NCBI RefSeq assembly: GCF_902762735.1
Contig: NZ_CACWPP010000003.1
Span: 1 to 64,000 of the forward strand
Reading direction: 5' to 3'
DNA: 64,000 nucleotides
DNA from: an uncultured Ruminococcus sp.
Lineage (GTDB): Bacteria; Bacillota; Clostridia; Oscillospirales; Ruminococcaceae
Below are positions 39,389-54,681 of the stretch, piece after piece. Position 1 is the first letter of the stretch. Each line of letters opens with the position of its first letter. Position numbers and translations under genes: made by a program. Below the pieces are notes generated by a model. The model was not told the DNA's origin, did no database searches, and was given only the letters and a program-made list of their open reading frames with translations.

Positions 39389-39487
39389 AGCGTTCCTCCC
39401 TTTTAGTGTCTGTATTTATCCTTCAATTTTACTTTCTTTTCCACATCAGCTCCCGTGACCGGGGCTTGCACGTTTGCTGCGATATGA

Positions 39488-39516: not shown

Positions 39517-39607
39517 TAGGTGATTTGTAAGTTTGTTCGATATTACAAAAAGCGGAAGTTTGTTTTTATAAACGTGCTATATTTTCTACAATCCTCCACT
39601 AAACCTC

Positions 39608-39636
39608 TTGACAATCGTTGATTTGTATGTTATATT
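39608..39636 (+). promoter_or_regulatory. Promoter of the XRE repressor operon
   Basis: TTGACA (39608-39613), 17-base spacer and TATATT (39631-39636), 40 bases before the XRE start. The spacer holds TGATTTGTATGTT, a near repeat of the sequence at 39521, which suggests autorepression. Confidence 0.82.
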
Positions 39637-39675
39637 CATTATACCGACAAGGAAACCACACCGGAGGTAATAGTT

Positions 39676-40086
39676 ATGACATTTGCAGAAAAGATCAAGC
39701 ATCTCAGAAAAGCACGTCATCTCTCACAGAGCGAGCTTGGAGAAATGATCGGCATCACAGGCAAAAGCATTCGTGAATATGAATCGGGAAACAGCTTACC
39801 AAAAAGCGATAAGCGGTATGAAAAGATTGCAGAGATCTTTGACGTTCCCGTTGACTTTTTGAAAAACGATACAGAGGACGATTTTGTACTTGCTTCACGC
39901 TTTGCTCATGGAGAAAGCGGTGTTGTTGAAGCAGAGAAGCTCGTCAATCAGATCGCAGGGTTGTATGCGGGCGGAAGATTATCCGATGGAGATGCCGCCA
40001 ATCTTATATTAGCACTTCAAAAGGCTTATTGGGAGATAAAAGAAGAAAAAGACAAGGCTGCTTCCAAAAAGGATTACGAAGATTAA
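39676..40086 (+). CDS. XRE-family helix-turn-helix repressor, 136 aa
   Basis: The N-terminal domain is a classic Cro/CI helix-turn-helix (EKIKHLRKARHLSQSELGEMI, TGKSIREYESGNSLP). The C-terminal ~60 residues are helical and charged, without the Ser-Lys autocleavage site of LexA/CI. A GGAGG lies 9 bases before ATG. Divergent from an ImmA-like gene and followed by a second one, it is the likely switch protein of this mobile region: ImmA-type cleavage of such repressors relieves repression after DNA damage. That link is family knowledge. Confidence 0.9.
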   Translation: MTFAEKIKHLRKARHLSQSELGEMIGITGKSIREYESGNSLPKSDKRYEKIAEIFDVPVDFLKNDTEDDFVLASRFAHGESGVVEAEKLVNQIAGLYAGGRLSDGDAANLILALQKAYWEIKEEKDKAASKKDYED

Positions 40087-40159
40087 ATAATCATTTTTTG
40101 TTTATGTGTAAAAATTATTCGCTGTACATCGGTTACATTTATTCGGAGGAAATAACCAA

Positions 40160-40663
40160 TTGAGCAGAAATTATATATATAATACCGTCATGGAACTTAT
40201 TGACAAGAATGGGACGAGGCAGCCTTATGAGCTTGCCGACGCTCTTGGAATAAAGATAATTGAGACATCTATTCGTCCCCTGCAAGGTGCTTTTTACATA
40301 ATATTCAACCAGCCGACTATCTTCATAGAGGAATCATTGAGAGAAGATCAAAAGCTGATAGTTTGCGGTCACGAGGACGGTCACGCAGTTCTTCACCCCG
40401 AACTTGTAAGAACCGGAAACCTTGCCGAGTTTGAGGTCTTTGATATGCGTGAACCTGTCGAATACGAAGCCAATATCTTTGCGGCTCATCTTCTGATAGA
40501 CGAGGACGAGTTGCTTAACTATCTCAGAATGGGATATTCGGTATTTCAGACAGCTATGTTGATGAAAGTCAACCCCAATCTTGTAAACATCAAACTCTCG
40601 GAAATGAACTGCTGGGGGTACAATTTTGATACATCATGGGGCAGCCACGAGCTTTTCAGATAA
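40160..40663 (+). CDS. Second ImmA/IrrE-like metallopeptidase, 167 aa
   Basis: TTG 40160 has GGAGG upstream. The zinc motif CGHEDGHAVLHP is near residue 75, and the downstream helix (VEYEANIFAAHLLIDEDELL) supplies the usual third ligand and the ANxFAAxLL pattern of ImmA. The N-terminal part (ELADALGIKIIE) is also typical. It is only ~70 bases after the XRE gene and on the same strand, the standard repressor-protease pairing (as ImmR/ImmA of ICEBs1). It is therefore the better candidate for the XRE partner than the divergent homologue. Confidence 0.9.
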   Translation: MSRNYIYNTVMELIDKNGTRQPYELADALGIKIIETSIRPLQGAFYIIFNQPTIFIEESLREDQKLIVCGHEDGHAVLHPELVRTGNLAEFEVFDMREPVEYEANIFAAHLLIDEDELLNYLRMGYSVFQTAMLMKVNPNLVNIKLSEMNCWGYNFDTSWGSHELFR

Positions 40664-40696
40664 CTGATTTATAGAGTTATGAAGGGAGGGAGTGCA

Positions 40697-41956
40697 ATGG
40701 CAGAACAATGCTATATGTGCGTGGATCTCAAGCGCTATTTTGCGAGTGCGGAATGTGCCGCAAGAGGTCTTGATCCGTTTAAAACAAATCTCGTTGTTGC
40801 GGACGAATCACGCGGCAAGGGAGCATTGTGTCTTGCTGTTACTCCCGCATTGAGCAAATTGGGAGTGAAGAACCGCTGCCGCCTATATGAAATACCCGAT
40901 AACATTGACTTTATTATCGCCAAGCCCCGAATGAGAATGTACATGAACATTTCGGCGCACATATACGGCATTTACAAGAAATTCGTGGCTGCCGAGGACG
41001 TTTATCCCTATTCCATCGACGAGGTTTTCCTGAACGCCGGACCGTACCTCTCGTTATACAAGATGACCCCGAAGGAGTTCGCCAATGCGATAATGGACAA
41101 GATAATGGAAGAAACGGGCATCACCGCGACCGCAGGAATCGGTACTAATATGTTTCTTGCAAAAGTCGCACTTGACATAACGGCGAAGCACGTTCCAGAC
41201 CACATCGGGTTGCTTGACGAGCAGACTTTCAGAGAAACGCTTTGGAAACATCAACCCATAACTGATATATGGGGCATCGGCAGCGGTACGGCGAAGCGTT
41301 TGGCGCGTTTCGGCGTTTATGACCTTGAAGGGATCACACATATCCCCGAACAGAGCCTTTACCGCACCTTCGGCAAGAACGCCGAAATACTGATAGACCA
41401 CGCATACGGCAGAGAGCCTTGTACGCTTGCAGACGTTCAGAATTATCAGACCAAGACCCGTTCTTTGTCAAACAGTCAGGTGCTTTTCAAAGATTATTCA
41501 CATTCAGGCACTCGGCTTATCCTTAAAGAGATGGTTGACAGCCTGACGAACGAGCTTGTGGGGCAGGCGATGTACACCGACCACGTTTCATTATATATAC
41601 GGTACAGTAACGACGTTATCGCTCCAACGGGCGGCTCTAAGAAGCTGGAGCAGCATACCAATTCTTACAAGGACATCTCCGAGATTATGCTGAAAATATA
41701 CGACAGCACTACCAACAAGGGATACAGTATCCGTCAAATCGGGATAAGCTACGGCAATCTTGTTTACGAGCATTGTGAGCAGCTATCATTTTTCAAGGAC
41801 GATGTTAAGGTGCAAAAGGAGCAGCAGCTTCTTCATGCAGTCTCGGTCTTAAAGGACAGGTTCGGCAAAAACTCCGTCCTTCGAGGAATGAGCTTGCAGG
41901 AGGACGCAACGGCAATGATAAGAAACACACTTGTGGGAGGTCACAGCGGTGGATAG
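40697..41956 (+). CDS. Y-family DNA polymerase (UmuC/UvrX-like), 419 aa
   Basis: ATG 40697 is preceded by GGGAGG; the longer frame to 40679 lacks this support. The catalytic motifs are CVDLKRYFASAE near the start and YSIDEVFLNAG near residue 105, holding the palm-domain acids. Little-finger patterns such as KTRSLSNSQVLF follow. This enzyme copies damaged DNA. Together with the XRE/ImmA pair and a YolD-like gene it makes a damage-response cassette seen in Firmicute prophages and ICEs. Its 3' end overlaps the next gene by 8 bases. Confidence 0.93.
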   Translation: MAEQCYMCVDLKRYFASAECAARGLDPFKTNLVVADESRGKGALCLAVTPALSKLGVKNRCRLYEIPDNIDFIIAKPRMRMYMNISAHIYGIYKKFVAAEDVYPYSIDEVFLNAGPYLSLYKMTPKEFANAIMDKIMEETGITATAGIGTNMFLAKVALDITAKHVPDHIGLLDEQTFRETLWKHQPITDIWGIGSGTAKRLARFGVYDLEGITHIPEQSLYRTFGKNAEILIDHAYGREPCTLADVQNYQTKTRSLSNSQVLFKDYSHSGTRLILKEMVDSLTNELVGQAMYTDHVSLYIRYSNDVIAPTGGSKKLEQHTNSYKDISEIMLKIYDSTTNKGYSIRQIGISYGNLVYEHCEQLSFFKDDVKVQKEQQLLHAVSVLKDRFGKNSVLRGMSLQEDATAMIRNTLVGGHSGG

Positions 41957-42284
41957 AGCAGAACGGGCAAAGATTTTTATGCCTTTTGCCAGCCTGAAAG
42001 GTTACTATGACCTTATCCTCGCACAAGAGGACGGGCAGGAGGTCAAACGGCAGGTGGATGATGAAACAGCGGCAAAGATCTCTGATAAGTTGAACCGTAT
42101 CAACAAGGGCAGCAGTATCAAAGTCGAGTATTTTGAGTGCGGCAACTATATCACCGAAAAAGGCAAGGTCAGCCGCATTGATTACTCCTACAAGTTCCTT
42201 GTGGTGAATGAGCAGAAAATATGGTTTGATGATATTATGGACATTGATGACTATGTTCCCTACGGTCGGGAAACGTGGCTGTAA
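41949..42284 (+). CDS. YolD-like protein, 111 aa
   Basis: I chose GTG 41949 because GGGAGG lies 8 bases upstream, inside the polymerase 3' end. The sequence (DRAERAKIFMPFASLKGYYDLI, then GSSIKVEYFECGNY, then GKVSRIDYSYKFLVV) follows the YolD pattern: a PF..L.GY box and a beta-rich Sm-like C-terminal half. YolD proteins are encoded next to Y-family polymerases in Bacillus (yqjX-yqjW) and are thought to control them. Confidence 0.85.
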   Translation: MDRAERAKIFMPFASLKGYYDLILAQEDGQEVKRQVDDETAAKISDKLNRINKGSSIKVEYFECGNYITEKGKVSRIDYSYKFLVVNEQKIWFDDIMDIDDYVPYGRETWL

Positions 42285-42303
42285 AGCCTGCTTCAAATTA
42301 CAC

Positions 42304-42332
42304 TTGCAGTATGAGATAAACTGTGCTATAAT
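42304..42332 (+). promoter_or_regulatory. Promoter for the 121-residue membrane protein
   Basis: TTGCAG (42304-42309), 17-base spacer, TATAAT (42327-42332), 51 bases before the start codon at 42383. Confidence 0.7.
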
Positions 42333-42382
42333 CTTAATAATGATTGTTATGTTTGGAAATATAATTCAAGGAGAATACACCA

Positions 42383-42748
42383 ATGGACGACAGCAATAAT
42401 ATTGGAATCAGAATAGTAACGCTTTTTGACATAATTGTGGCAATAGTGGTCGGGATCAAGTTCGTACCTTCCAATGTTCATCTTATTCTGCGAATACTCA
42501 TTATTATCGGCATATTCTTTGCGGCTTTCTTTATAATGAACATAAGGAAATTCGGCATCGGCTTGATAGCCATAATCGCACTAAGCATATTATTCACATG
42601 GGTCGCAAACGGTATCATTATTGCACCTAAAGTGGAAGATACTGTATGGAAATGGGTATTAAGAGCGTGCGCTTTTCTGATATGCTTTCTCGGACACATC
42701 AAACTTACAGTTTGGGACGAGGAAATCAAGGACAAGTTTTTTGCTTAA
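42383..42748 (+). CDS. Hypothetical four-helix membrane protein, 121 aa
   Basis: ATG 42383 is preceded by AAGGAG. Four hydrophobic segments are visible: IVTLFDIIVAIVVGIKF, LILRILIIIGIFFAAFFIM, GIGLIAIIALSILFTWV and WVLRACAFLICFLG. The loops are short and the C-terminus is charged (DEEIKDKFF). It has its own promoter and a terminator (42754-42785). No family recognised. It could be an immunity or small transport protein, but nothing visible decides this. Confidence 0.7.
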   Translation: MDDSNNIGIRIVTLFDIIVAIVVGIKFVPSNVHLILRILIIIGIFFAAFFIMNIRKFGIGLIAIIALSILFTWVANGIIIAPKVEDTVWKWVLRACAFLICFLGHIKLTVWDEEIKDKFFA

Positions 42749-42753
42749 AAGAT

Positions 42754-42785
42754 CTATCCCGACATCTGTGGAGATGTTGGGATAG
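42754..42785 (+). terminator. Intrinsic terminator before the cassette region
   Basis: CTATCCC and GGGATAG pair, with ACATCT/AGATGT inside and a GTGG loop, followed by a T-rich stretch. It also insulates the first silent cassette from upstream transcription. Confidence 0.75.
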
Positions 42786-42851
42786 GTTTCTTAATATAAA
42801 ACGATGCTATGAGAATTTTCTTGCATAAACAAGTTCATCTTTTTTACCGAG

Positions 42852-43874
42852 GTGGCATATGCTTGGTTTACGATGAGCAGAGAGGTTGAGGTTAAGAATA
42901 TTCAGATGGTTGCAACTGTTCCTGAAGACATTCAGATTTCGCTTGGTGCATTAACCGGTGGAGAATTAAACCTTAATACTGGTTATCTTGCTGAAACTAG
43001 TAAAACAGCATCTGCACTTGCGACTGTTGCTGCTCCTGCTAAAGATACAGACTGGTCTAACATGGTGGATATGGGTAAGTACTATGAATTCGGAAGACTT
43101 ATACCAGCTTCTTCTGTGGATGGTGTTGACGTATTCTTCACGCCTGATGCAAATGGCGTAGGTAAGACGGTTAAGACAGATGCTACCTTCATTCAGGCGA
43201 ATGGTGGAACGGATTCAGCAGATATTTCTTACCAGGCAACAGCACACACATTTACAGCTGCTGAAGCAAACGGTGCGACTACTCCGTGGGGTGTTACTGG
43301 AAAACTATATACTCCAAATACTGGTTGGAACACTACTAACGATGATGGTTACTACATAGATATTCCTATATGGTTTAGAACATCTAGTAAATCTCAGGTT
43401 GATCTTCAGGTTCAGGGTTATGTTCTTCCTGGCGATACGGATGCAAGTAAGCCTACTGCTGCTTCATCAGTAACTGGTTATGAAGATACCCTCTGTAAGG
43501 CTGTTCGAGTTGCAATATTGGATTCTACTGCTGCCAACAGTGTATCGAAGATTATTCCTTTGACTGATACAAATTTCGGTACTGGTACAGCAATTACAGG
43601 AAACTATTACAACAGAGCCGGTCAGGTTGGTGCAGTTGCTGGTGACGATGGATCATATTCTGCCCCTGATATAGGAGTATTAGCTACAGATACAATCGCT
43701 GTAACAGCTGCAACTTCTTCTCAAAATGGATATGGAACTCCTATAAAGTATGTTATTAGAGTATGGCTTGAAGGTGAGGATCAGGATTGCTGGAACGCTA
43801 CAGCAGGTCAGGATTGGAAGATTGCTCTGAAATTCACTAATCCTGCTGGTGATCCGATTCCTACTAGTCCGTAA
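42852..43874 (+). CDS. Silent cassette 1: promoterless TasA/camelysin-like mature domain, 340 codons
   Basis: The frame begins in the 32-bp shared site (42858) with YAWFTMSREVEV and has no signal peptide, ribosome binding site or promoter; a terminator lies just upstream. It carries the scaffold blocks common to all four cassettes: DWSN, YYEFGRLIPASS, FFTPDANGVGK, DDGYYIDIPIWFRTSS, LCKAVRVAIL and IRVWLEGEDQDCWN, ending LKFTNP. Sequences between the blocks differ from the other copies. It would be secreted only after joining to the leader at 51365-51470, through inversion of the whole 42858-51365 segment. Followed by a hairpin at 43905. Confidence 0.75.
   Translation: MAYAWFTMSREVEVKNIQMVATVPEDIQISLGALTGGELNLNTGYLAETSKTASALATVAAPAKDTDWSNMVDMGKYYEFGRLIPASSVDGVDVFFTPDANGVGKTVKTDATFIQANGGTDSADISYQATAHTFTAAEANGATTPWGVTGKLYTPNTGWNTTNDDGYYIDIPIWFRTSSKSQVDLQVQGYVLPGDTDASKPTAASSVTGYEDTLCKAVRVAILDSTAANSVSKIIPLTDTNFGTGTAITGNYYNRAGQVGAVAGDDGSYSAPDIGVLATDTIAVTAATSSQNGYGTPIKYVIRVWLEGEDQDCWNATAGQDWKIALKFTNPAGDPIPTSP
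42858..42889 (+). repeat. Recombination site A (32-bp cassette core)
   Basis: A 32-bp sequence starting TATGCTTGGTT and ending AGAGAGGTTGA, present four times with at most two variable positions. A and C (plus) face B and D (minus). The preceding ~25 bases (GTTCATCTTTT...GAGGT) are shared by A, B and C but not by D. Confidence 0.85.
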
Positions 43875-43904
43875 TTCTATTCAAAAACAACTACACAACT
43901 TAAC

Positions 43905-43944
43905 TAATTATATCCCCCTCATTTCGGTGAGGGGGATAATTATA
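43905..43944 (+). terminator. Terminator after cassette 1
   Basis: ATCCCCCTC pairs with GAGGGGGAT around ATTTCGGT, extended by AT pairs (TAATTAT/ATAATTA). The same core hairpin follows cassette 3 at 50196. Confidence 0.8.
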
Positions 43945-43950
43945 TACCTC

Positions 43951-43986
43951 AAAAACCCCCACCGGACTATTGTCAGTGGGGGTTTT
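43951..43986 (-). terminator. Terminator after cassette 2
   Basis: AAAAACCCCCAC pairs with GTGGGGGTTTT. The T-rich arms make it bidirectional. It lies between the convergent cassettes 1 and 2. Confidence 0.8.
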
Positions 43987-44022
43987 AGGTGTTTAGTTAG
44001 TCTGTGTTAGTTCAAACACTTA

Positions 44023-45192
44023 TCACGGAGAAGGAGGAGTTGTGCTTGCAGTTCCGCTAATATCCTTGCCATCAGAAGTTGTGCCATTCAGGAACTTCAG
44101 GTTGATTGACCAATTCTGACCAGCGGTATCATTCCAGCAGTCGGGATCTTCGCCTTCGAGCCATACGCGGATAACAGCCTGAACTGCATCACCATAACCA
44201 GTACCAGAAGCAGCAGCAAGCGTAACAACTGCAGCAGAACCATCATACTCAGTAGCAGAACCATAAATCGCCTCATCAAATCTGTAACCACTAAGAGTGC
44301 CATTAGCCTTAACAGCTACATTATTTGTCTTTGCTCCGCCATACCAATCGTTCACAGAAGAACCGGTAAATGGAGTAGTAGAGATATTTCCATATGCAGT
44401 TGTAGTCATTCCAGTCCAACCATCATGTACTGGTAAAAGGTTAGATGCGGTCACACTTCCACCAGTTCCTACCTGAGAATCAGGGCTAAGAACTGCTACA
44501 CGAACCGCACGATACAAAGCCTCACCAGCATCGTTCTGCCTGATAGAATCATCATTAGGAATAACATATGCTTCAACCTTTAATGTAGCTCCTGCTGTAC
44601 TTGAAGTTCTGAACCATACAGGAATATCCACATAATAGCCATCATCCTTAGTATCATTCCAGCTTACAGACTGAGCATAGGCACCACCACTCGCACTCCA
44701 ACCATCACTTTCGGTTGTATTAGCGTGCAGTGTTGTCTTAAATGTTTTAGTGGTATCGGCACCAGTTCCAGATTGGGTTGCTCCGGCATCATTTACTGCC
44801 GTACCATTTGCCTTAATGTAGGAAGCATTTGCCTTAACAGATTTACCAACACCATCAGCATCAGGTGTAAAATAAATATTTGCACCCGTTGTCGAAGATG
44901 CAGGAATCAACTTACCAAGCTGATAATAAGCAGAAATATCAGCTGTATTCGACCAGTCCCAATCATTTACAGGAGCATGTACCTTACCATCGCTTGCACC
45001 AGCATTCGCAGTAGTTTCCATAAGGACTCCAGAACTCGATGCAAGTGACTTTCCAGATGCTGCCGTTGCTGCCGTACCAGGAGCTGTACCAATCTGCCCA
45101 AGAGAAATCTGGACGTTTTCAGGCGTGGTCGCTGTCATCTGAATATTCTGCACTTCAACCTCTCTGCTCATCGTGAACCAAGCATATTCCAC
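44023..45192 (-). CDS. Silent cassette 2: promoterless TasA/camelysin-like mature domain, ~389 codons
   Basis: Lies directly downstream of the recombinase operon on the same strand and begins with site B (YAWFTMSREVEV). It has no signal peptide; the ATG-like start inside the site has no ribosome binding site, though readthrough from the recombinase gene could transcribe it. It keeps DWSN, YYQLGKLIPASS, FTPDADGVGK, DDGYYVDIPVWFRTSS, LYRAVRVAVL and IRVWLEGEDPDCWN, with long Thr/Ala/Gly-rich variable stretches between. It is in the same orientation as the expressed gene, so it needs two inversions (A-B, then A-D) to reach the leader. Confidence 0.75.
   Translation of the reverse strand: MEYAWFTMSREVEVQNIQMTATTPENVQISLGQIGTAPGTAATAASGKSLASSSGVLMETTANAGASDGKVHAPVNDWDWSNTADISAYYQLGKLIPASSTTGANIYFTPDADGVGKSVKANASYIKANGTAVNDAGATQSGTGADTTKTFKTTLHANTTESDGWSASGGAYAQSVSWNDTKDDGYYVDIPVWFRTSSTAGATLKVEAYVIPNDDSIRQNDAGEALYRAVRVAVLSPDSQVGTGGSVTASNLLPVHDGWTGMTTTAYGNISTTPFTGSSVNDWYGGAKTNNVAVKANGTLSGYRFDEAIYGSATEYDGSAAVVTLAAASGTGYGDAVQAVIRVWLEGEDPDCWNDTAGQNWSINLKFLNGTTSDGKDISGTASTTPPSP
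45155..45186 (-). repeat. Recombination site B (32-bp cassette core)
   Basis: The same 32-bp core as site A with C instead of T after TTGGTT. It is minus-oriented, at the head of cassette 2 and the left edge of the recombinase block. Confidence 0.85.
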
Positions 45193-45228
45193 CTAGGAAA
45201 ATAAGATGACCTCAAAGATGTCAAAATA

Positions 45229-46827
45229 TTAAACCTTAACAGTCACTTTTTCTCCCCCGCAAAACTTCACAACGACCCGATCAACTCTCTTGACAGTAAT
45301 CTCCTCCACAAGCTGCCTGACAAGATCGTTATCGAACTCACCAAGTGCCTCGATACCATGAGTAAGCTCCCTTGCGGCTTTGATGCGGTACATATCATGC
45401 CGTCCCGAATCACGCTTGCGGTTCAGTTCATCAAGCTCGGCTTTCAGCTCCTGTTCCTCTGTATGCAGGAGCTTTAAATTGTTTCCGAGAATATTGGCAG
45501 GAATAGCAGAAATATCAGCAAGCAGGCTGTTTCGTTCACTCTCAATATCTTCAAGTCTCGTACTGATAGCAGAGATACGGCGTTCAAGGTCGGCATTCTC
45601 GTTTTCGAGGGAATTTGCAGAAATCGAGGACTGTCTGTCAAAACCGCTGCTGTCAAGTATCTGCGCATTTATCGCTCTCACTATCGCGCTGTGCAGGGCT
45701 TCTTCATGCAGGCTGGGCGAATCGCACCTAGCCTTACCGCCGTCAAGAGTGCTCTTGCAACGCCACACGGCACGCTTGTTGCTGCCGCTTTTCCACAGCA
45801 CACGCTTGTAATTGCAGCCGCAGTTGCCACAAACAAGTAGCTCACTCAGGGCATACTCGGTGCGGTATCTTCCCCCGCGAGCGTTGCCCTTAGTCATAGC
45901 ACTTCGGCGGGAAAGCTCTAACTGCACCTTGTCCCAAGTCTCACGGTCGATGATCGGGGCGTGACAGTTCTGCACCAGATATTTCGGCTTCTGACCGTTG
46001 TTCTTAGCACTTTGATGTGTCAGGCAGTCCACAGTGTAATACTTCTGCAAAATGGCATCGCCCACATACTTCTCGTTTTTGAGGATAGCGTTCACATGGT
46101 CGCGGTTCCAGACGGTGCTTCCGTTCCTGCGGGCTGCACCCTTTTCGGTCAGACGCTCGGCAATCTTACGCATACTCATTCCGCCCGCAAAAAGGGTGAA
46201 TATCTCCCTAACGATTGCGGCTTCGTCCTCAATTATCTGTGGGACGCCATCCACAAGCCGATAGCCCAGCGTGTACCTCATCTGATAGCGGACATTGCCC
46301 TCCTTGAAAGACTTCTCAATGCCCCAAGTTATATTACGGCTGATACTCTCGCTCTCCGCCTGCGCGAAGCTGGCATACAACGTTATAGCAAACTCCGAAC
46401 TGACCGAAAGCGTGTTGATGTTCTCCTTTTCAAACTGCACCGCCACATTCAGTCTTTTCAGCTCGCGGACATAATCAAGGCAATCGACGGTATTTCTCGC
46501 AAAACGGCTTATCGACTTACAAAGAATAAGATCAATTTTACCCTTGCGGCACAGCTCGATCATGCGGTTGAACTGTGTACGGTTCTCGGTCTGCGTACCG
46601 CTGATGCCCTCGTCCGCAAAAATGCCTATCATTTGCCAGTCGGGACGGCTGCCGATGTAGTCGGTGTAGTACGCAATCTGCACCCCGAAGCTGTTAAGCT
46701 GCTCCGTTTCATCGGTGGACACCCTCGCGTAAGCCGCCACTCTCATTTTTTTGCCCGTGTACACGTTGTTCGCCTGCTCCTTCGCGGGGATAAGCGTCAC
46801 GTTCGCCGCCGTCTTTATATCACTCAT
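45229..46827 (-). CDS. Large serine recombinase 1, 532 aa
   Basis: ATG 46827 is chosen for its AAAGGAG site 8 bases upstream; it overlaps the stop of recombinase 2 (ATGAGTGA). The resolvase domain has the catalytic serine in AAYARVSTDE (about residue 36), with GISGTQTENR and LCKSISRFARNTVD. A recombinase domain (GYRLVDGVPQII) follows, then a zinc ribbon (CGNCGCNYKR ... WRCKST) and a coiled coil (NADLERRISAISTRLEDIES). This is the layout of TndX/phiC31-type integrases, which join two short att sites by 2-bp staggered cuts. It is flanked by inverted sites B and C, so inversion of the cassettes is its likely job. Confidence 0.93.
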   Translation of the reverse strand: MSDIKTAANVTLIPAKEQANNVYTGKKMRVAAYARVSTDETEQLNSFGVQIAYYTDYIGSRPDWQMIGIFADEGISGTQTENRTQFNRMIELCRKGKIDLILCKSISRFARNTVDCLDYVRELKRLNVAVQFEKENINTLSVSSEFAITLYASFAQAESESISRNITWGIEKSFKEGNVRYQMRYTLGYRLVDGVPQIIEDEAAIVREIFTLFAGGMSMRKIAERLTEKGAARRNGSTVWNRDHVNAILKNEKYVGDAILQKYYTVDCLTHQSAKNNGQKPKYLVQNCHAPIIDRETWDKVQLELSRRSAMTKGNARGGRYRTEYALSELLVCGNCGCNYKRVLWKSGSNKRAVWRCKSTLDGGKARCDSPSLHEEALHSAIVRAINAQILDSSGFDRQSSISANSLENENADLERRISAISTRLEDIESERNSLLADISAIPANILGNNLKLLHTEEQELKAELDELNRKRDSGRHDMYRIKAARELTHGIEALGEFDNDLVRQLVEEITVKRVDRVVVKFCGGEKVTVKV

Positions 46828-48859
46828 GATGTTTGCTCCTTTCACTTTTGACCGTCTTTCCGTTGATGAACTTCACGCGCACTCTATCGGGCGTGACATA
46901 GATATGCTTGACTGTTCTCGTGAGAAACTCCGGCAACTCCACACAATTCCTGATAGCGTCCTCTATCTGCGCCGTCTGCTCGGTTTTCACGTTGTACTCT
47001 ATACAGAGGATTTTTTCCTCCGCAAGATTAACCGCAGCTTTTGTAAGTATTTCTGCGTTTTCACCCGAAGCTATAAGATTTTCAAGACCGTCCTGCATTA
47101 TGAGAACTCTTTCCGTCGGACGATACTCTGTAACTCGGCAATTCAGCCTTATCAAACGCGGATCATTGCATACCCTTGTAAATACAGCATTAGTGAAACT
47201 TATCATATCTTCATCGGTATGCTTTGCCCTCCAATACGAACAGTGGCGGTTTGAGCATTTCCAGAGATATACGCCCTCAATCTTGCGCCTTGAAAGCCGA
47301 CCGCCGCAGCCACCACACAATGCAAGTGAGCGAATCGCAGTTATCGGCTCATGTGCAGAAATACTTCGTTTTTCATGATGTGGTATATTCATAGGGATAT
47401 GTATTCCGCCAATAAGCTCAAAATCGACAGTATCGTGAGCAAATCGGATTGCTTTAAGAATATCAGTACCTCCATCATTCTTGACAGCAGAAACCGTCTT
47501 ATAAAGCGTTCTTAGATCGTTTATCAAAAGCGCATTATGTTCCGCACGTTTCCAACGCTTTTCGGTCAGCGCGGCATACTCGGCATTGAGTTCGGTCTCG
47601 GAGGCTATGACCTCCCCATAAGAAATAAGACCCTCCGCGCACATTTTGCGAAGGGTCATTTTCTGTTGCATTATTTCTTCAAGGCGACCGCTTTCTGCAT
47701 TTTCGGAGACCTTTTCAACGATCCTTTCAAGCTGCCCGATAAGCGGCAGAAGAACATCATCGGCATGGTTGGTGAGCTTTGTCCATATCACTCGCCACAA
47801 ACCGGAAAGCGTTTCGTTATGCAGAATATCGTTCGTGCAGGGTTTCACAAGGTCAAATCGCCCTGTGCATTGCCAGTAAGGACGAGCCGCACCAATTAGG
47901 TAGTAAGACCGCCCACAAACAGCACAGATGACCTTTAGACGAAACGGGCTATTATTTGTCCTAGTCGCAGAACAGGCATTTTTCAACCGCAAAGTCTGCG
48001 CCGATTCAAAGGTGTCTCGGTCGATTATCGGCTCATGGCTGCTGCTGACATAGAAGCTGTCAGCCTGTCCCGTGTTTGGACGGCTAGTCCCCATGAACAC
48101 GGAAACGGTTTTCTGCCAGCGAATATCACCGAGATACATCTCCTGTGCGAGCATTTTGTAGATTGTGACATTGTTCCACGCGGCAGATTCGGGCGCGGCA
48201 AGACCCTCGGAATTAAAAAGGGCGGCGATACGCCTTGCACCCATTCCGCCGAGATACAGCGAAAAAATGCGCCGGACGACCGCCGCCTGTTCATCGTTTA
48301 TTACGAGCCTGCCGTTCACCTTGTCATAGCCGTAAGGCACACGGGCAACGCCGAGCGTCCCTGCCGCCATTTTGCGGTGCAGGCTCCAGCGAATATTTCT
48401 CGAAATGGACTGCGATTCCTCCTGAGCAAGACCGCCCATAATTGCTATCATCATTTCGTCGGCAGACCGCGCCGTGTCGATGTTTTCTTTCTCGAAGAAC
48501 ACCGTCACGCCCATTTCCCGAAGCTCACGCAGAATCGCAAGGCAGTCACGGGTGTTCCTCGCAAAGCGGCTTATCGACTTGGTGAGTATGCGGTCGATGC
48601 GCCCACGCCTGCAATCGTCGAGCATACGCATGAACTCGGGGCGTTCGGCAGTTGTGCCGCTTATCCCCACGTCCGCGTAGATGTCCACAAGCTCCTCATT
48701 GGGCGAACCGTTCAGCAGGTTAGTGAACCAAACTCGCTGCGCCGCGTAAGAGTGCAGCTGCTCCGCGCTACTCGTCGATACGCGGCAATAGGCTCCGCAG
48801 CGCAGCTTTTTCCCCCGCAAAACTAAAGGTATTGGCTGTATAGTTGTTATTTCAGCCAT
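46820..48859 (-). CDS. Large serine recombinase 2, 679 aa
   Basis: ATG 48859 (MAEITTIQ) has AAAGGAG 8 bases upstream; the longer frame to 48904 would include that site. The resolvase domain has GAYCRVSTSS with the catalytic serine near residue 26, GISGTTAERPE and LTKSISRFARNTRD. A recombinase domain (VPYGYDKVNGRLVI) follows, then two zinc ribbons (CAVCGRSYY and CGGCGGRLSR ... KCSNRHC) and helical stretches. It is the first gene of a two-recombinase operon. Paired serine recombinases may form a heteromer or divide the work, for example integration direction versus reversal; which applies is unknown. Divergent from silent cassette 3 by about 100 bases. Confidence 0.93.
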   Translation of the reverse strand: MAEITTIQPIPLVLRGKKLRCGAYCRVSTSSAEQLHSYAAQRVWFTNLLNGSPNEELVDIYADVGISGTTAERPEFMRMLDDCRRGRIDRILTKSISRFARNTRDCLAILRELREMGVTVFFEKENIDTARSADEMMIAIMGGLAQEESQSISRNIRWSLHRKMAAGTLGVARVPYGYDKVNGRLVINDEQAAVVRRIFSLYLGGMGARRIAALFNSEGLAAPESAAWNNVTIYKMLAQEMYLGDIRWQKTVSVFMGTSRPNTGQADSFYVSSSHEPIIDRDTFESAQTLRLKNACSATRTNNSPFRLKVICAVCGRSYYLIGAARPYWQCTGRFDLVKPCTNDILHNETLSGLWRVIWTKLTNHADDVLLPLIGQLERIVEKVSENAESGRLEEIMQQKMTLRKMCAEGLISYGEVIASETELNAEYAALTEKRWKRAEHNALLINDLRTLYKTVSAVKNDGGTDILKAIRFAHDTVDFELIGGIHIPMNIPHHEKRSISAHEPITAIRSLALCGGCGGRLSRRKIEGVYLWKCSNRHCSYWRAKHTDEDMISFTNAVFTRVCNDPRLIRLNCRVTEYRPTERVLIMQDGLENLIASGENAEILTKAAVNLAEEKILCIEYNVKTEQTAQIEDAIRNCVELPEFLTRTVKHIYVTPDRVRVKFINGKTVKSERSKHHE

Positions 48860-48930
48860 GCTATCAACTCCTTTCAAGGAAATTATAACACGGCTTTGTG
48901 ACATGGTTATTATGAGAATATTCTTATAGT

Positions 48931-50160
48931 TTGCAGTTCATCTTTTTCTCCGAGGTCGAATATGCTTGGTTTACGATGAGCAGAGAGGTTGAAGTACAGA
49001 ATATTCAGATGGTAGCAACTACTCCTGAAGATATTCAGATTTCGCTCGGCAAGATATATTCAAACAACACTAAAACAACTGCATCTGCTAGTGAGGAATA
49101 TACTCTTGGAGATGGTACGGGTTGGCTGAAACTTGATGGTACAATGGCTGAAGCACCGAGAGGTGTTACAGTCAGTGGAACAACATATACAGCAGATGCT
49201 CATGATGAACTTGACTGGTCTAATATTGCTGACATTTCAGCATATTATGAATTTGGTAAACTGATTCCTGCTTCTTCCCACAATGGTGTAAACGTATTCT
49301 TTACTCCCGATGCAGCAGGTTCCGGTCGTACTTTGAATGCTCAGGCAAAGTTCTATCAGGCAGTTGCAGGCTTAACCCCGAATCTGTGGAAGAGCGCAGC
49401 AAACACCTTTGCAAGCGATGGAACAGGTGCGAGTGCTCAGGCAACTGCGCATATCTATGGTGACGACAAGACTAATGCTACCACGCATACATGGGGTGTG
49501 TATGACGAAGACGATAATGCAGATGGTTACAAGAAGTCAACTGAGTGGAATGTAACCAATGATGACGGCTACTACATTGATATTCCTGTATGGTTGAGAA
49601 CATCAAGCACGGAGACCACAAAGCTGTATGTCACCGGCTATGTTACAAGTCAGGGAACATCGAATGCAGATGAGGATACCGATGACTTGTATAAGGCTGT
49701 TCGTGTTGCTATCCTGACAGATGCTGGTGCAGTTGATCAGGGTTGCTTGGCTTTGAATGATGGCTTAGATAAGTATATTGATCCTGTGACTGGGCAGGCA
49801 ACACACGCTAACAAGTTCCCGACCACAGCGGGTGGTGTTGGTATCCTTGATTCCTTGAACTATAACAACAGACATGATGATGTAACAACTGGAATTTTCG
49901 GCGTAAGCGACACGACTAATGCTGCTAACGGCAACTTTACCGATGTAGGACACACAGCTCTTGTAGTGAACGATGGTGGCACTGGCAAAGAGGTTGCAAC
50001 TCTTGCTGTTGGCAACGGTGCAGAATACGGTCCGGCAACAAAGCTCATCATTCGTGTATGGCTTGAAGGCGAAGATGAAAACTGTTGGAATGAAAACGCA
50101 GGTCAGAACTGGAATATTGCTCTGAAATTCTCTAAGACTCCGTTGGCTGCTGGTTCCTAA
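48931..50160 (+). CDS. Silent cassette 3: promoterless TasA/camelysin-like mature domain, ~409 codons
   Basis: The frame opens a few codons before site C (VEYAWFTMSREVEV) and has no signal peptide, promoter or ribosome binding site. Scaffold blocks are conserved: LDWSNIADISAYYEFGKLI, FFTPDAAGSGR, DDGYYIDIPVWLRTSS, LYKAVRVAIL and IRVWLEGEDENCWN. Intervening stretches are unique and polar (Asp/Asn/Thr/Ala). It is convergent with the expressed gene. One inversion between sites C and D (48961-51365) would put it behind the leader. Its 30 bases upstream of the site match those of cassette 1 (TATGAGAAT, GTTCATCTTTTT). Confidence 0.75.
   Translation: MQFIFFSEVEYAWFTMSREVEVQNIQMVATTPEDIQISLGKIYSNNTKTTASASEEYTLGDGTGWLKLDGTMAEAPRGVTVSGTTYTADAHDELDWSNIADISAYYEFGKLIPASSHNGVNVFFTPDAAGSGRTLNAQAKFYQAVAGLTPNLWKSAANTFASDGTGASAQATAHIYGDDKTNATTHTWGVYDEDDNADGYKKSTEWNVTNDDGYYIDIPVWLRTSSTETTKLYVTGYVTSQGTSNADEDTDDLYKAVRVAILTDAGAVDQGCLALNDGLDKYIDPVTGQATHANKFPTTAGGVGILDSLNYNNRHDDVTTGIFGVSDTTNAANGNFTDVGHTALVVNDGGTGKEVATLAVGNGAEYGPATKLIIRVWLEGEDENCWNENAGQNWNIALKFSKTPLAAGS
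48961..48992 (+). repeat. Recombination site C (32-bp cassette core)
   Basis: Identical over 32 bp to site A. Plus orientation, at the head of cassette 3 and the right edge of the recombinase block. Confidence 0.85.
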
Positions 50161-50195
50161 TATCCATACTGAACTACTTACCACACAGCTAATCC

Positions 50196-50223
50196 TATCC
50201 CCCTCATTTCGGTGAGGGGGATA
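50196..50223 (+). terminator. Terminator after cassette 3
   Basis: TATCCCCCTC pairs with GAGGGGGATA around ATTTCGGT; same core as the hairpin after cassette 1. Confidence 0.8.
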
Positions 50224-50241
50224 TTTATATACTGAAAAAGA

Positions 50242-50270
50242 ACCCCGTCAAACAAAATGTCTGACGGGGT
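50242..50270 (-). terminator. Terminator after the expressed cassette
   Basis: ACCCCGTCA pairs with TGACGGGGT around an A-rich loop. On the minus strand it is followed by a T-rich run. Confidence 0.75.
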
Positions 50271-50312
50271 GTGTTTATCTAGTTAAATGAATGCAATTTC
50301 ACATCATAAACC

Positions 50313-51470
50313 TTACTGATTAGCAGCTGTTGGAGCCGCCATTGTGCCGATCTTTGTGAATGTTAAATCGATAGTAAAGGATTGAGCAGCATTTGAATCC
50401 CAACAATTTATATCTTCACCTTCGAGCCATACACGGATAGTCTTCTGTACAGCAGTGCTATAATTGTTAGTGCCAGTAGGAGCTGCAAGGGCTACAACTG
50501 CATCACCAGAAACAGTACCTTCATCCTCCGAAGTCTGTGTCAAGAATGAAACAGTTCCATAAATGCTGTCAGCATTTGTTATTGCGACTGCTGCAGTAGT
50601 ACCAGTTGCATAATGTCCATTAAGAGTTCCCGCAGCCTTTACCGCCTGCGGAGATGTAATAGCTGTATCATCACTTGTTTCATCAGCAGTATACCTATTG
50701 TAATATGCACCCTGTAGAGCCGTAGCGTTTGCATACACGGTAGAATCTGCGATAACTTTGTCTGCTGTAGAGGTATTAGCAGTACCATTGGCATCAAGGA
50801 TAGCAACACGGGCTGCCTTGTACAAATCACCTGTGCCAGTTGCACCAGAGCCATCATTTCTGCCAGCGGTAATTTTTACTTTTACGCCGAGAGTCGATGC
50901 TGTCTTTGAACTGGACCTAAACCATACAGGAATATCAATGTAGTAACCCTTAGTATGTGTTTCCGCATAATTTGCCGCATGAGTAGCACTTGTGATTTTG
51001 TTATAGCTTGTCATAATTTCAGAACCACTTGCATCTGCCTGTGCAAAAACACCATCTACATCGACAGACTTACCAGCCTGAGTAGCATCACTTGTGTACC
51101 AAATATCTGTACCATTTACAGATGAAGCAGGAAGCAAATATCCAAAATCATAATAATCACACACTGCAACAGAATGTGTCCAATCTGGATCATCGCCTGT
51201 ATTATTGGCTGGTGCGTCTACCAATGTCGCATTACCTGTTCCATCAGCAAGCACTGTGGACGAGAGCATACCTTTTCCCAGAGACACTTCATAACCTTCC
51301 GGTACAGAAGCTGTCATCTTAATACCAGTCACTTCAACCTCTCTGCTCATTGTGAACCAAGCATACGTACTTGTCGAGAGCATGGCAGCCGAGATCATGA
51401 GCGAGCCGGCAGCCGGTATGAGCTTCTTTCTTGCGGAGCTCTTTTTATTTGTATTAGTTTTAGCTTTCAT
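50313..51470 (-). CDS. Expressed TasA/camelysin-like secreted protein with SipW-class signal peptide, 385 aa
   Basis: ATG 51470 is 8 bases after AAAGGA. Residues 1-35 form a signal peptide: basic KSSARKKLIPAAG, hydrophobic core, then STSTYAWFTMS, the motif of SipW-dependent substrates such as TasA and CalY. The mature part has the same scaffold as the silent cassettes (DWTHSVAVCDYYDFGYLLPASS, KGYYIDIPVWFRSSS, LYKAARVAIL, IRVWLEGEDINCWD). Site D (51334-51365) spans the junction of leader and mature domain. It is the only copy with a promoter (52019-52047), reached through two mini-leaders. TasA-type proteins build extracellular fibres; that function is inferred. The SipW-type peptidases at 54.0 and 58.9 kb are the probable processing enzymes. 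Confidence 0.88.
   Translation of the reverse strand: MKAKTNTNKKSSARKKLIPAAGSLMISAAMLSTSTYAWFTMSREVEVTGIKMTASVPEGYEVSLGKGMLSSTVLADGTGNATLVDAPANNTGDDPDWTHSVAVCDYYDFGYLLPASSVNGTDIWYTSDATQAGKSVDVDGVFAQADASGSEIMTSYNKITSATHAANYAETHTKGYYIDIPVWFRSSSKTASTLGVKVKITAGRNDGSGATGTGDLYKAARVAILDANGTANTSTADKVIADSTVYANATALQGAYYNRYTADETSDDTAITSPQAVKAAGTLNGHYATGTTAAVAITNADSIYGTVSFLTQTSEDEGTVSGDAVVALAAPTGTNNYSTAVQKTIRVWLEGEDINCWDSNAAQSFTIDLTFTKIGTMAAPTAANQ
51334..51365 (-). repeat. Recombination site D (expression site)
   Basis: The 32-bp core with two differences from site A (C and A at the two variable positions). Its upstream arm is the signal-peptide coding sequence (ending CTCGACAAGTACG) rather than the arm shared by A, B and C. 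Confidence 0.85.
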
Positions 51471-51564
51471 AATCATTTTCCTTTCTTATAAAGATTTTAG
51501 CTTTAGGTATGCTAATCACCTATCTAAATCTTAAAGTTGTAATCGTGTGAAAAACAAGTGAAAC

Positions 51565-51592
51565 CCGTCAACTATTTGGTATCAACGAGTTA
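51565..51592 (-). repeat. 28-bp tail repeat, copy 1
   Basis: On the minus strand it begins TAACTCGTTGATACC and ends AGTTGACGG. It follows mini-leader 2 directly and supplies its stop codon. An identical copy is at 51792-51819. Confidence 0.8.
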
Positions 51593-51697
51593 CGTACTTG
51601 TCGAGAGCATGGCAGCCGAAATAAGTAACGAACCGGCGGCGGGTATGAGCTTCTTCTTAGCGGAACTCTTTTTGTTAGTGTTTATATTAGCTTTCAT
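51590..51697 (-). CDS. Mini-leader 2: stand-alone SipW-class signal peptide, 35 aa
   Basis: ATG 51697 has the same AAAGGA context as the expressed gene. The product matches the expressed leader almost fully (KSSAKKKLIPAAGSLLISAA...STST) and then meets TAA where the mature domain should start. DNA identity with the expressed locus is lost exactly after CAAGTACGTA, within one base of the cassette junction. So it is an empty leader slot or a remnant left by cassette exchange. Confidence 0.7.
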   Translation of the reverse strand: MKANINTNKKSSAKKKLIPAAGSLLISAAMLSTST

Positions 51698-51791
51698 AAT
51701 CATTTTCCTTTCTTATAAGAATTTTAGCTTGCGGTAAGCTAATCACCTATCATAACTCTACGTTAAAAATCGAATGAGAAAAGAGCTTAAT

Positions 51792-51819
51792 CCGTCAACT
51801 ATTTGGTATCAACGAGTTA
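51792..51819 (-). repeat. 28-bp tail repeat, copy 2
   Basis: Same 28 bases as copy 1, joined to the end of mini-leader 3. The two tails are the candidates for a second, cassette-free half-site. Confidence 0.8.
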
Positions 51820-51918
51820 AGTAGAGGTAGCCAACATTGTAGCAGAGATCGCGAGCATACCGGCTGCGGGTACTAACTTCTTCATGGGATTACCCTTTTT
51901 CTTTGTATTAGCTTTCAT
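51817..51918 (-). CDS. Mini-leader 3: stand-alone SipW-class signal peptide, 33 aa
   Basis: ATG 51918 follows AAAGGA. The sequence (KKKGNPMKKLVPAAGMLAIS...LATST) is a divergent version of the same leader and also stops after the ST(S)T motif. It is the promoter-proximal leader. Short hairpins (51944-51960 and 51985-52000) precede it in the transcript. Confidence 0.65.
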   Translation of the reverse strand: MKANTKKKGNPMKKLVPAAGMLAISATMLATST

Positions 51919-51943
51919 ATTCATGTTCCTTTCATAATGGATT

Positions 51944-52018: not shown

Positions 52019-52047
52019 ATTATACAGTATTTTGTTTTCAGTGTCAA
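52019..52047 (-). promoter_or_regulatory. Consensus promoter of the expressed cassette
   Basis: TTGACA (52042-52047), 17-base spacer, TATAAT (52019-52024), a perfect sigma-A promoter reading leftward through both mini-leaders into the expressed gene. No comparable promoter precedes the silent cassettes. Confidence 0.9.
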
Positions 52048-52443: not shown

Positions 52444-53202
52444 TTGAAATTAAATGAAAAAAGCACAGTCGGCGGCATGCGGGCAGTCGAACTATTTTAC
52501 AGACCGATAAGAAATATCTCCGCAGGCAATACGTCCTTCTACCAGTCACAGACAAGGCTGAACACCCCCGGACTGGGCACACTGATGCCTGAAAATTTCA
52601 GAGATGTCAGCGAGATAACTCAGCAGTGCATCAACTTGTTTGAGCTGGAGATCATACAGGCTTTGGAAGCGATCAAGACCTTTAATGAGCGTGAATTGCT
52701 GTTCAACTGGGTATCCGTATACATGCCCGCCAAGTATCTGCGTGATATTGGCGCTGAAAACAAGCTGATGGATATTACCGAAAAGATGGGTGTCAAGACC
52801 TCGCAAGTCTGCTTTACACTATCCGAAAAGCTCTTTGAAGAGAGCGAACCTGAAGTCGCAGATAATATAAAGAAGCTGAGAAACAGAGGCTTTCATTTTA
52901 TGCTGACCGATTTTGGAAGTATAAGTTCGCCTATAATGAAGCTGTCGGAATATGAGGTCGATCATGTGATGTTCTCGCCTGAGATAACCCAGTATCTCGG
53001 AAAAGACGAACGTTCGGACAGCGCGGTGAAGTCGCTTATCGACTTTGTATCAGGATTAGGCGCTGAGCCAATTGCTGACGGCATTTCCAATGTGCATCAA
53101 GCTGAATCACTTTACGAGTTTGAGTGTGATTATTGCGCAGGTTCTCTTGCAGGCAGCTACTCTGCTGAAAGGTTCATCAGGAGGCCAAGTAAGGAAGATT
53201 AG
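52444..53202 (+). CDS. Degenerate EAL-domain protein, 252 aa
   Basis: TTG 52444 follows GAGGTG. The fold of an EAL phosphodiesterase is recognisable from VELFYRPIRNI at the start, LTDFGSISSPIMKL (family DDFGtG), VDHVMFSPEITQ (family KiDxxfv) and GAEPIADGISN (family AEGVE). Catalytic features are missing: the EAL signature position reads SFYQSQTRL, the second Asp of DDFG is retained but the first is Thr, and the KID lysine is replaced. It should not hydrolyse c-di-GMP and may instead bind it or a partner. It is the first gene of the secretion operon, so a regulatory input is likely. No membrane segment. Confidence 0.8.
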   Translation: MKLNEKSTVGGMRAVELFYRPIRNISAGNTSFYQSQTRLNTPGLGTLMPENFRDVSEITQQCINLFELEIIQALEAIKTFNERELLFNWVSVYMPAKYLRDIGAENKLMDITEKMGVKTSQVCFTLSEKLFEESEPEVADNIKKLRNRGFHFMLTDFGSISSPIMKLSEYEVDHVMFSPEITQYLGKDERSDSAVKSLIDFVSGLGAEPIADGISNVHQAESLYEFECDYCAGSLAGSYSAERFIRRPSKED

Positions 53203-53275: not shown

Positions 53276-53992
53276 TTGGCAGAAACTAGAGTTATAGATG
53301 TTCTGGAGCTGAGACGTACTGCTAAAGAAACTAAAAGGCATGTCGTTGTAATGCGTGTCCTCGGGCTTTTGGTGATATTATTGGTGGCAGTCATCGCAAT
53401 TGCATATGCGATCTCATACTTTTATGACAAGTATGGCAGCTTTACAGTTAAGATCAATAAATATGACATGATGAGACAAGGTCTTACATTGTCGGAAGTG
53501 CCCGAGTATGACAGAACAGTTTCAGTTCTGAATGCAAATATCGTTTATGATATGACTAACATCAGCGGTGAGGACCTTCCTGAAAACATCGACATGATAA
53601 ACGGAAGCCACAACGGTGAAAGTTATATCGCATATACATTCTATCTTATCAATGCAGGCGATGACACGATAAGCTATGAGGGCGAAATGTCGCTGGAAAA
53701 TGTTACTAATAACGTTGATGAAGCCGTGCGCATCGCTGTATATAAAAATGGTGAAAAAACTGTTTACGGCAAAACAAAGTCAAACGGTAAAGGCAAAGAG
53801 AGTGACTGTGACAGCGAGTTTACCTCTTCAACGATCGTAATGACAACTGACCACAAAGGTTTCAAACCGCAGGCTAAGGACAAATACACAGTTGTTGTCT
53901 GGCTTGAGGGCAACGACCCCGACTGTACCGATGCGCTTATCGGCGGGACTTTGAAGCTGGGCATGGATTTTAAAATAGTTGAAACAACTTAA
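53276..53992 (+). CDS. Membrane-anchored protein with cassette-type C-terminal motif, 238 aa
   Basis: TTG 53276 follows GGGAG. A ~35-residue basic cytoplasmic start is followed by one membrane segment (VLGLLVILLVAVIAIAYAIS) and a ~175-residue outside domain. That domain ends VVWLEGNDPDCTD ... LGMDFKI, matching the RVWLEGED..CW ... LKF end of all four cassette proteins, and has a middle block like VRIAVYKNG (cassette VRVAIL). It is therefore a distant relative of the TasA-like proteins held in the membrane, possibly the base of the fibre (TapA-like role). Next gene begins 18 bases downstream. Confidence 0.75.
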   Translation: MAETRVIDVLELRRTAKETKRHVVVMRVLGLLVILLVAVIAIAYAISYFYDKYGSFTVKINKYDMMRQGLTLSEVPEYDRTVSVLNANIVYDMTNISGEDLPENIDMINGSHNGESYIAYTFYLINAGDDTISYEGEMSLENVTNNVDEAVRIAVYKNGEKTVYGKTKSNGKGKESDCDSEFTSSTIVMTTDHKGFKPQAKDKYTVVVWLEGNDPDCTDALIGGTLKLGMDFKIVETT

Positions 53993-54009: not shown

Positions 54010-54681
54010 ATGAAAACGGTATTGAAAGTAGTAGCAAATGTGTTGGTGTGGATCATTCTGATACTGGCACTGCTGGTGACGATAATGGTTTTTTCTTCGG
54101 GAAGGAACAACGGTGTTGCAAACCTTTTGGGTTACATACCGATGACCGTAGAATCCGACTCGATGAAGCCCACATTCAAGAAAGATGACCTGATAATGTG
54201 CAGGGAGATAGATGATGTATTTTCACTCCAAAAGGGCGATGTCATCACATTCTGGACGATAATCGACGGTAAGAAAGTCAAAAACACCCACCGTATCGTG
54301 GAAATTACCGAGCTTGATGGTTCGAGAAGTTTCGTCACACGCGGTGATAACAACCAGCTGGACGATACTGTACCTGTTCTTCCGAGCGACATTATCGGTA
54401 AGTGGACAGAGTTCAAGATCAGCGGTTTCGGCAAGGTGATGAGCTTCCTCAGGACAAAGACAGGCTTCTTTGTATGCATAGTCATACCGATGGCGGTATT
54501 CTTCCTGGTCGAGCTGTACAAGTTCATCGTTACGCTGATAGAGCTGAAAAAGCCTGCACTCAGCGAAGAAGATGAGGAAGAGATCAAAAAACGTGCTATT
54601 GAAGAGTATCTTGCTCAGCAGAAGAAAGAGCAGGGTGAAAGCGACTCTGAAACACACAATGTATCTGAAAACGAAACGTAA
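54010..54681 (+). CDS. sipW: Signal peptidase I of SipW (ER) type, 223 aa
   Basis: One N-terminal membrane segment (9-28) is followed by the catalytic Ser51 in VESDSMKPTF. His94 in NTHRIVEI takes the place of the usual lysine, the hallmark of the SipW/ER type. Asp113 lies in TRGDNNQ. A second membrane segment (GFFVCIVIPMAVFFLVELY) and a long charged tail end the protein. SipW peptidases specifically process TasA/camelysin-like precursors, the family encoded by the neighbouring cassettes. AGGAG precedes ATG 54010. Confidence 0.92.
   Translation: MKTVLKVVANVLVWIILILALLVTIMVFSSGRNNGVANLLGYIPMTVESDSMKPTFKKDDLIMCREIDDVFSLQKGDVITFWTIIDGKKVKNTHRIVEITELDGSRSFVTRGDNNQLDDTVPVLPSDIIGKWTEFKISGFGKVMSFLRTKTGFFVCIVIPMAVFFLVELYKFIVTLIELKKPALSEEDEEEIKKRAIEEYLAQQKKEQGESDSETHNVSENET

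Follow-up and report, generated by a model that had tools for sequence, protein, structure and literature searches.

The DNA analyzed here (the window) is a stretch of 64,000 nucleotides from an uncultured Ruminococcus sp. (assembly GCF_902762735.1, contig NZ_CACWPP010000003.1, positions 1 to 64,000). It contains a real, compact and unusual locus in which four related gene cassettes, A to D, lie on both sides of two genes for large serine recombinases (LSR1 and LSR2). Each cassette encodes the mature domain of a predicted surface protein and joins either a signal peptide-encoding leader or a recombinase-type DNA arm at a single TA dinucleotide. LSR1 and LSR2 likely exchange these joins, so that a different domain would come to be exported, and we give this reading a probability of about 0.62. 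For part of the family, sequence comparison gives good support to an exchange at the junction of leader and mature domain, and active switching by LSR1 and LSR2 within a strain is likely.

The 32-bp sequence TATGCTTGGTTYACRATGAGCAGAGAGGTTGA begins each of the four mature domains (at 42858 and 48961 on the forward strand, 45186 and 51365 on the reverse); no copy with three or fewer mismatches appeared in any of 100 shuffles, and chance was rejected as its origin. The domains have 338 (A), 387 (B), 399 (C) and 350 (D) residues, with A, B and C 40–41% identical among themselves and D 32–35% identical to them. Only D, which occurs once in the window's own genome, stands behind a signal peptide and a ribosome-binding site (read by eye), with a promoter-like match upstream. 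None of the four has an internal stop, and for that reason we rejected the idea that the silent cassettes are decayed. A sequence-only reading of the window had described these four related domains in the orientations +, −, +, −, their shared starts, the single leader-bearing cassette and two large serine recombinases between the cassette pairs, and our analysis agrees on each count. LSR1 and LSR2 both have Resolvase, Recombinase and Zn-ribbon domains above the Pfam cut-offs and, in alignment with the solved domain 3g13, retain the N-terminal RVS motif that contains the catalytic serine, Ser43; matches of the Ccr models to them are far below cut-off. Family and profile searches gave no family name for the cassettes (TasA, camelysin or other), a cassette sequence profile had no match in PDB and a structure search had none at E ≤ 0.001; a TasA fold is unproven.

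Across the cassette family the 32 bp show strong conservation, but they are also coding sequence (YAWFTMSREVE), so that being conserved is not in itself proof of a recombination site. Upstream of them, the similarity of silent cassettes A, B and C runs on into a second common arm. Beside the TA these arms match at 22 of 26 positions (A vs C) or 21 of 26 (A vs B, B vs C); none of 20,000 random TA pairs in the window reached 17 of 26, and 16 or more occur in about 1 in 10,000. The outer arm of D matches them at 6–7 of 26. This second arm suggests that the exchange point is the TA at which two arms meet and not the whole 32 bp, and the earlier view of the 32-bp core as a complete shufflon site has to be given up, since it forms one common coding half-site with an outer arm that differs between A/B/C and D. 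Every listed join in the locus falls at a TA, with which the codon following the leader begins. The joins are of three types: D has leader-TA-cassette, the silent A, B and C have arm-TA-cassette, and leaders 2 and 3, which lack a mature domain, have leader-TA-stretch. The B and C arms flank the LSR block as an inverted pair, placed as the two halves of a phage-type attachment site (attP) would be at the ends of an integrated element. That LSR1 and LSR2 are mere markers of an element end was considered and rejected, as P-like arms and TA joins are common to the block ends and the cassettes.

Cassette D is also found joined to an arm. In protein P0231 its mature domain is identical over 350 residues and is preceded by MGVIFFSEVE in place of the leader; this protein stands for five member sequences on two contigs, the longest of 4315 bases (the window's contig has 77,362), and in P0331, from another contig (47,516 bases), a different cassette follows these ten residues. 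Translation of the window's own arms gives similar residues, QFIFFSEVE for C and EVILFS-stop-VE for B, and the window itself encodes no start of this kind before D.

Related genomes were searched for other arrangements of the locus, and Ruminococcus albus 7, of the same genus as the window genome, has one, with the LSR block inverted relative to both flanks and with different cassettes. Window positions 45098–48953 align inverted to R. albus 7 259186–255337 (84% identity over 3857 columns). The left flank, 30000–42947, corresponds on the same strand to positions 230851–254242 of the R. albus 7 megaplasmid pRUMAL02, NC_014825.1 (four pieces, 90.8% identity, 44% of a 24-kb query), and the right flank, 51322–60022, is collinear with the R. 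albus 7 chromosome. R. albus 7 has three cassettes in the order c1(+), LSR1(+), LSR2(+), c2(+), c3(−), and two of the arms, A on the outside and B on the LSR2 side, lie in the same places there. By our reconstruction, a single inversion of the A-D type would turn this order into that of the window minus C.

Leaders and mature domains also assort across the protein family. Searches with A and C gave 230 proteins (the best 120 of 660 and the best 120 of 1047, ten common to both), and the search with D gave the best 120 of 816, scored over the 7991 candidates sharing most words. Among 189 leader-bearing proteins from the A and C searches there are 39 groups with an identical 28-residue leader, and 36 of these contain a pair with <60% mature identity (the other three have 70%, 79% and 87–90%). 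The last 28 residues of leader 1 occur in seven proteins including D, with mature identities of 33–89%. For the 184 of 230 proteins that were usable, median mature identity is 0.48 in the 241 pairs whose leaders are identical at 27 or more of 28 residues and 0.47 in the rest, and in the 193 pairs with mature identity of at least 0.85 the median for the leaders is 0.57, compared with 0.54. Between leader and mature identity the Spearman correlation is −0.03 for one half of the mature domain and 0.00 for the other, while the halves correlate with each other at 0.62. Individual cases agree: leader 1 (MKAKTNT onward) is joined to an A-type body in P0008 and a C-type body in P0142, and D-type bodies (81–84% identical) stand behind four different leaders, one of them near leader 1 (P0232–P0235). 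Exchange of leaders and bodies is thus supported by the inverted LSR block, by D standing behind an arm and by the lack of leader-mature correlation in 184 proteins.

Several observations weigh against this reading. Its support comes from comparison between genomes and between proteins. In the D-search set, in which one lineage is dominant, leader and mature identities correlate at 0.73 (106 of 120 proteins usable), and in the pooled set at 0.16 (290 of 350), so leader-mature exchange is not universal. The family seems fixed in some lineages; of 107 leader-bearing rows of the D search, 82 share one 24-residue leader end to which their bodies are linked (P0249–P0350). P0231 is known as a protein only, labelled like the window's own proteins and with its source genome hidden. 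The cassettes are not clearly orthologous between the window and R. albus 7 (31–45% identity), which has no counterpart of C and whose LSR1-side arm is degenerate (8–11 of 26 matches to same-type arms) and joined to no cassette. More than one inversion thus separates the two loci, and with no clear orthologous cassette the inversion must be old or have been accompanied by cassette replacement. Of 295 genomes, only two, that of the window and R. albus 7, showed LSR2 relatives of >52% identity, and of 394 the same two showed the P-arm pattern; since leader-mature exchange is far wider, other recombinases would have to act elsewhere. The viral contigs gave 28 LSR2 relatives, all ≤45% identical, and the genome contigs a single LSR1 relative, of 29% identity, in a search that may have excluded near ones.

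The residue after the leader, Tyr or Phe, goes with the leader in 39 of 39 groups, which also speaks against the proposal, for a crossover at TA alone fits this pattern only if the partners match in their cores. Very similar mature domains do occur with both residues (P0123 with Phe and P0124 with Tyr, 89%; P0040 with Phe and P0047 with Tyr, 92%). Either the cores (TA or TT) must match and bodies cross between the two in another way, or the crossover lies just past the codon. The movement of Tyr/Phe with the leader would suit RecA-dependent homologous recombination or gene conversion through the YAWFTMSREVE start, with the LSRs as bystanders belonging to mobile elements, as would the family-wide conservation of the first mature residues and an exchange wider than the LSR1/LSR2-type arms. 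Such a route would not account for the five silent joins (two in R. albus 7 besides A, B and C) at which an arm of that type gives way to the cassette precisely at TA, for two more arm types (S and X, below) using the same TA or for the inversion of the LSR block itself, and we regard it as highly improbable.

In the mechanism that we favor, A, B and C would be hybrid sites of a P-like arm and a cassette arm, D would be a site like the bacterial partner of attP (attB), with a leader arm and a cassette arm, and the LSR block between its two P-like arms would form a unit of 3.8 kb, mobile or invertible, whose junction resembles attP. In a first step the block, or another P-P junction, would enter leader-TA-cassette (attP × attB) and silence D. 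In a second, leader-P would recombine with P-cassette (attL × attR), a reaction requiring a recombination directionality factor (RDF), and the leader would come to lie on another cassette; we identified no RDF for this step. Because TA is self-complementary, orientation would not be enforced, and inversions and excisions would both be possible. Horizontal transfer of a larger LSR element that lies at such a junction and has a leader of its own, as S does in R. albus 7, would bring in further cassettes.

The sequence-only reading had a leader shuffled among mature proteins by one-step inversion, with LSR1 and LSR2 treating the four 32-bp cores as equivalent and C-D, A-D and A-B inversions switching the cassette. 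Comparison upholds the exchange of leaders in part of the family; the one-step inversion fares less well. The orientations of the four sites allow it, the reconstructed A-D-type inversion of the R. albus 7 order agrees with it (C aside) and so does D behind an arm in P0231, but the sites are of two kinds, P-like arm with cassette and leader with cassette. For serine integrases, PMC3783163 describes attP × attB as reactive, attL × attR and antiparallel like-with-like hybrids as needing an RDF, and the remaining pairings as inert. By these rules C × D and A × D, each a hybrid paired with leader-cassette, should be poor substrates. We consider the one-step route improbable, and the two-step route appears to fit the published LSR rules better.

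A larger element also lies at a junction of this kind. A 35.57-kb segment, S, is present in R. albus 7 both in pRUMAL02 (261546–297114) and in the chromosome (2524077–2559646), 99.99–100% identical over the compared pieces. It encodes recombinases of its own and has a leader and mature domain at its right end. At its ends, each time through a TA, it adjoins a cassette, a leader and the halves of a split ABC permease gene. All seven relatives examined have this gene uninterrupted, its halves adjacent, reading in one direction and in each case 24 bases apart; in relative loci L122 and L123 the motif of the joined halves, TA included, occurs with one mismatch. In genome G002 an S arm and leader have 85.6% DNA identity up to 18 bases into the cassette, and the proteins of G002 and S are 32% identical overall, leader included. 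The X stretch behind the empty leaders 2 and 3 matches the arm of a lone cassette near pRUMAL02 position 100278 at 17 of 26 positions, a match from which it would appear that, in R. albus 7, leader 3 is where the conjugative element itself (about 161 kb, S not counted) has integrated. Serine integrase attachment (att) sites have two-fold related arms on either side of a central dinucleotide; such arms are found in the B/C pair (21 of 26), the X pair (17 of 26) and the S pair (16 of 26), and not on the LSR1 side in R. albus 7 (8–11 of 26). Among 29 genomes of the genus only two, R. albus 7 and that of the window, have the X arm; the X-left arm had no match in the window's own genome, and neither core nor X-arm patterns had any in the viral contigs. 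In a genome of another genus (G063, L045 55–4428), a leader-bearing gene of the family lies a few kb from an LSR gene with 72% DNA identity to one of S, so the association reaches beyond the genus.

Such elements could by themselves have shaped the locus: LSR elements would have displaced bodies and brought leaders in nested integrations, and the silent cassettes would be relics with no present switching. S at a leader junction, carrying a leader and mature gene, fits this account, as do the X arms behind leaders 2 and 3 with a similar arm on the distant lone pRUMAL02 cassette, and the two empty leaders in the window. The four stop-free cassettes, the two intact LSRs, the inversion of the LSR block between genomes and the identical D in leader-joined and arm-joined form argue against it, and we think it unlikely. 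It is possible, and we suggest it tentatively, that the TA of the junction tyrosine codon is a common attachment site for several unrelated LSR systems, at which small blocks flip or hop and conjugative or phage-like elements integrate, with leaders and bodies traded as free modules between Ruminococcus populations; antigens or adhesins would then be recombined combinatorially by the chemistry of integrases and not of invertases. The features of the locus are collected in Table 1.

Table 1 Features of the cassette locus and its flanks (positions in the window)
Feature	Position	Strand	Remarks
Right end of conjugative-type element beside cassettes	30000..42857	+	VirB4/VirD4-type genes in pRUMAL02 counterpart
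Recombinase-type (P-like) arm of site A, read into TA core	42830..42857	+	Conserved in R. albus 7
Silent cassette A, mature domain without leader	42858..43874	+	TA core 42858-42859; leader-bearing relatives up to 77% identical (P0002)
Silent cassette B	44023..45186	-	TA core 45186-45185; leader-bearing relatives P0068, P0107, 76-77% identical
P-like arm of site B, beside 3' end of LSR2	45187..45214	-	Arm comparison
LSR2, large serine recombinase, 538 aa	45229..46845	-	91% identical in R. albus 7
LSR1, large serine recombinase, 694 aa	46820..48904	-	82% identical in R. albus 7
P-like arm of site C, beside 5' end of LSR1	48933..48960	+	21/26 to B arm
Silent cassette C	48961..50160	+	TA core 48961-48962; leader-bearing relatives P0123-P0125, 83-87% identical
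Cassette D, leader-joined (reported as expressed), mature domain	50313..51365	-	TA core 51365-51364; same mature domain behind P-like arm in P0231
Leader 1, predicted signal peptide joined to D, MIMKAKTNTNKKSSARKKLIPAAGSLMISAAMLSTST	51366..51476	-	
X arm after leader 2 (stop codon and half-site-like stretch)	51567..51592	-	17/26 to arm of lone R. albus 7 cassette
Leader 2, without mature domain	51593..51703	-	MKANINT-onward part joined to A-type cassette in P0009
X arm after leader 3	51794..51819	-	Identical 26-nt stretch
Leader 3, without mature domain	51820..51924	-	
Promoter-like TTGACA-17-TATAAT	52019..52047	-	12/12 matches; upstream of all three leaders
EAL-domain protein, conserved chromosomal flank	52444..53202	+	PF00563; adjoins leader gene in 5/7 fetched relatives
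Conserved predicted exported protein by signal peptidase	53276..53992	+	72-90% identical in 5/7 fetched relatives; no family match
Signal peptidase I, SipW/archaeal type	54010..54681	+	TIGR02228 above cut-off, 95.8 vs 51.85

Leaders 2 and 3 were overlooked in the sequence-only reading, as were the three recombinase-type arms. Each of these leaders closes at a TAA, the first two bases of which are the same TA as in the cassette joins, followed by an identical 26-nt stretch, TAACTCGTTGATACCAAATAGTTGAC. These bodiless leaders (51593–51924) lie under the same promoter-like site as D and, if translated, would give short orphan signal peptides; in a promoter consensus scan the number of sites in the whole window was no higher than in shuffles. 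The signal peptidase gene beside the leaders scores below the cut-off of the SipW model (111 vs 190), and a SipW-type peptidase gene adjoins the leader gene in five of seven fetched relatives, the neighborhood expected for SipW-dependent export.

Switching of a promoter and leader among silent surface genes is already known, and the closest case that we found, the vsa locus of Mycoplasma pulmonis, uses a tyrosine recombinase. There one expression site (promoter, ribosome-binding site and 5′ coding sequence) is inverted before silent 3′ cassettes (PMC3047005, PMC2268961), with HvsR as the tyrosine recombinase (PMC2268961) and 714 nt of coding sequence moving with the promoter; the locus described here has serine recombinases and half-site arms of two kinds, and only the signal peptide would move.

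R64-type shufflons resemble our locus in having alternative coding segments in both orientations beside a recombinase gene. Their recombinase, Rci, is a tyrosine recombinase that alters the C-terminus of the protein, and a shufflon has several equivalent repeated sites between its segments. Rci acts on sfx sites (PMC11852207). Here, by contrast, the recombinases are large serine enzymes, the sites are hybrid half-sites common in one half only (6–7 of 26 between A/B/C and D in the other), and exchange would follow an N-terminal leader.

The locus also recalls composite staphylococcal cassette chromosome (SCC) islands, in which insertions are stacked at one site. It shares with serine integrases and SCC-Ccr elements the LSR domain set and, in S and X, arms that are alike in pairs and meet the host at a dinucleotide; it differs from them in that the att site is a signal peptide/mature junction and insertion brings a replacement leader. 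In Campylobacter fetus sap, too, a surface protein varies through DNA inversion, and to our knowledge neither sap nor Clostridioides difficile cwpV uses an LSR pair at a signal-peptide codon. PMC2784873 describes cwpV as another case of surface-protein variation through DNA inversion. Our literature search, which covered few subscription papers and no bioRxiv preprints, found no LSR system of this kind. Integrase-type enzymes, normally one-way, appear to be used here for repeated exchange; one half-site sits in conserved coding sequence, and the self-complementary core would abolish orientation control. If our reading is correct, it would explain the diversification of a predicted surface protein in fiber-degrading rumen bacteria, tie surface variation to conjugative elements, and offer natural LSR half-site systems open to direct testing.

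Two minor observations concern pRUMAL02. This finished megaplasmid shares the near-identical 35.57-kb segment with the chromosome, holds one half of the split ABC permease gene (the other half is chromosomal) and carries dnaK, dnaJ, grpE, hrcA, pyk, purF, prfA, coaE, spoIIGA and sigE; it has the appearance of part of the chromosome that was either excised between the two S copies or split off by assembly. By the cassette locus, at 244556–253857, it encodes hsdS, a tyrosine recombinase, hsdS, hsdM and hsdR in a layout that, judged from gene order, is that of an invertible type I restriction system; the window flank at 42300–42850 has no such hsd or tyrosine recombinase open reading frames.

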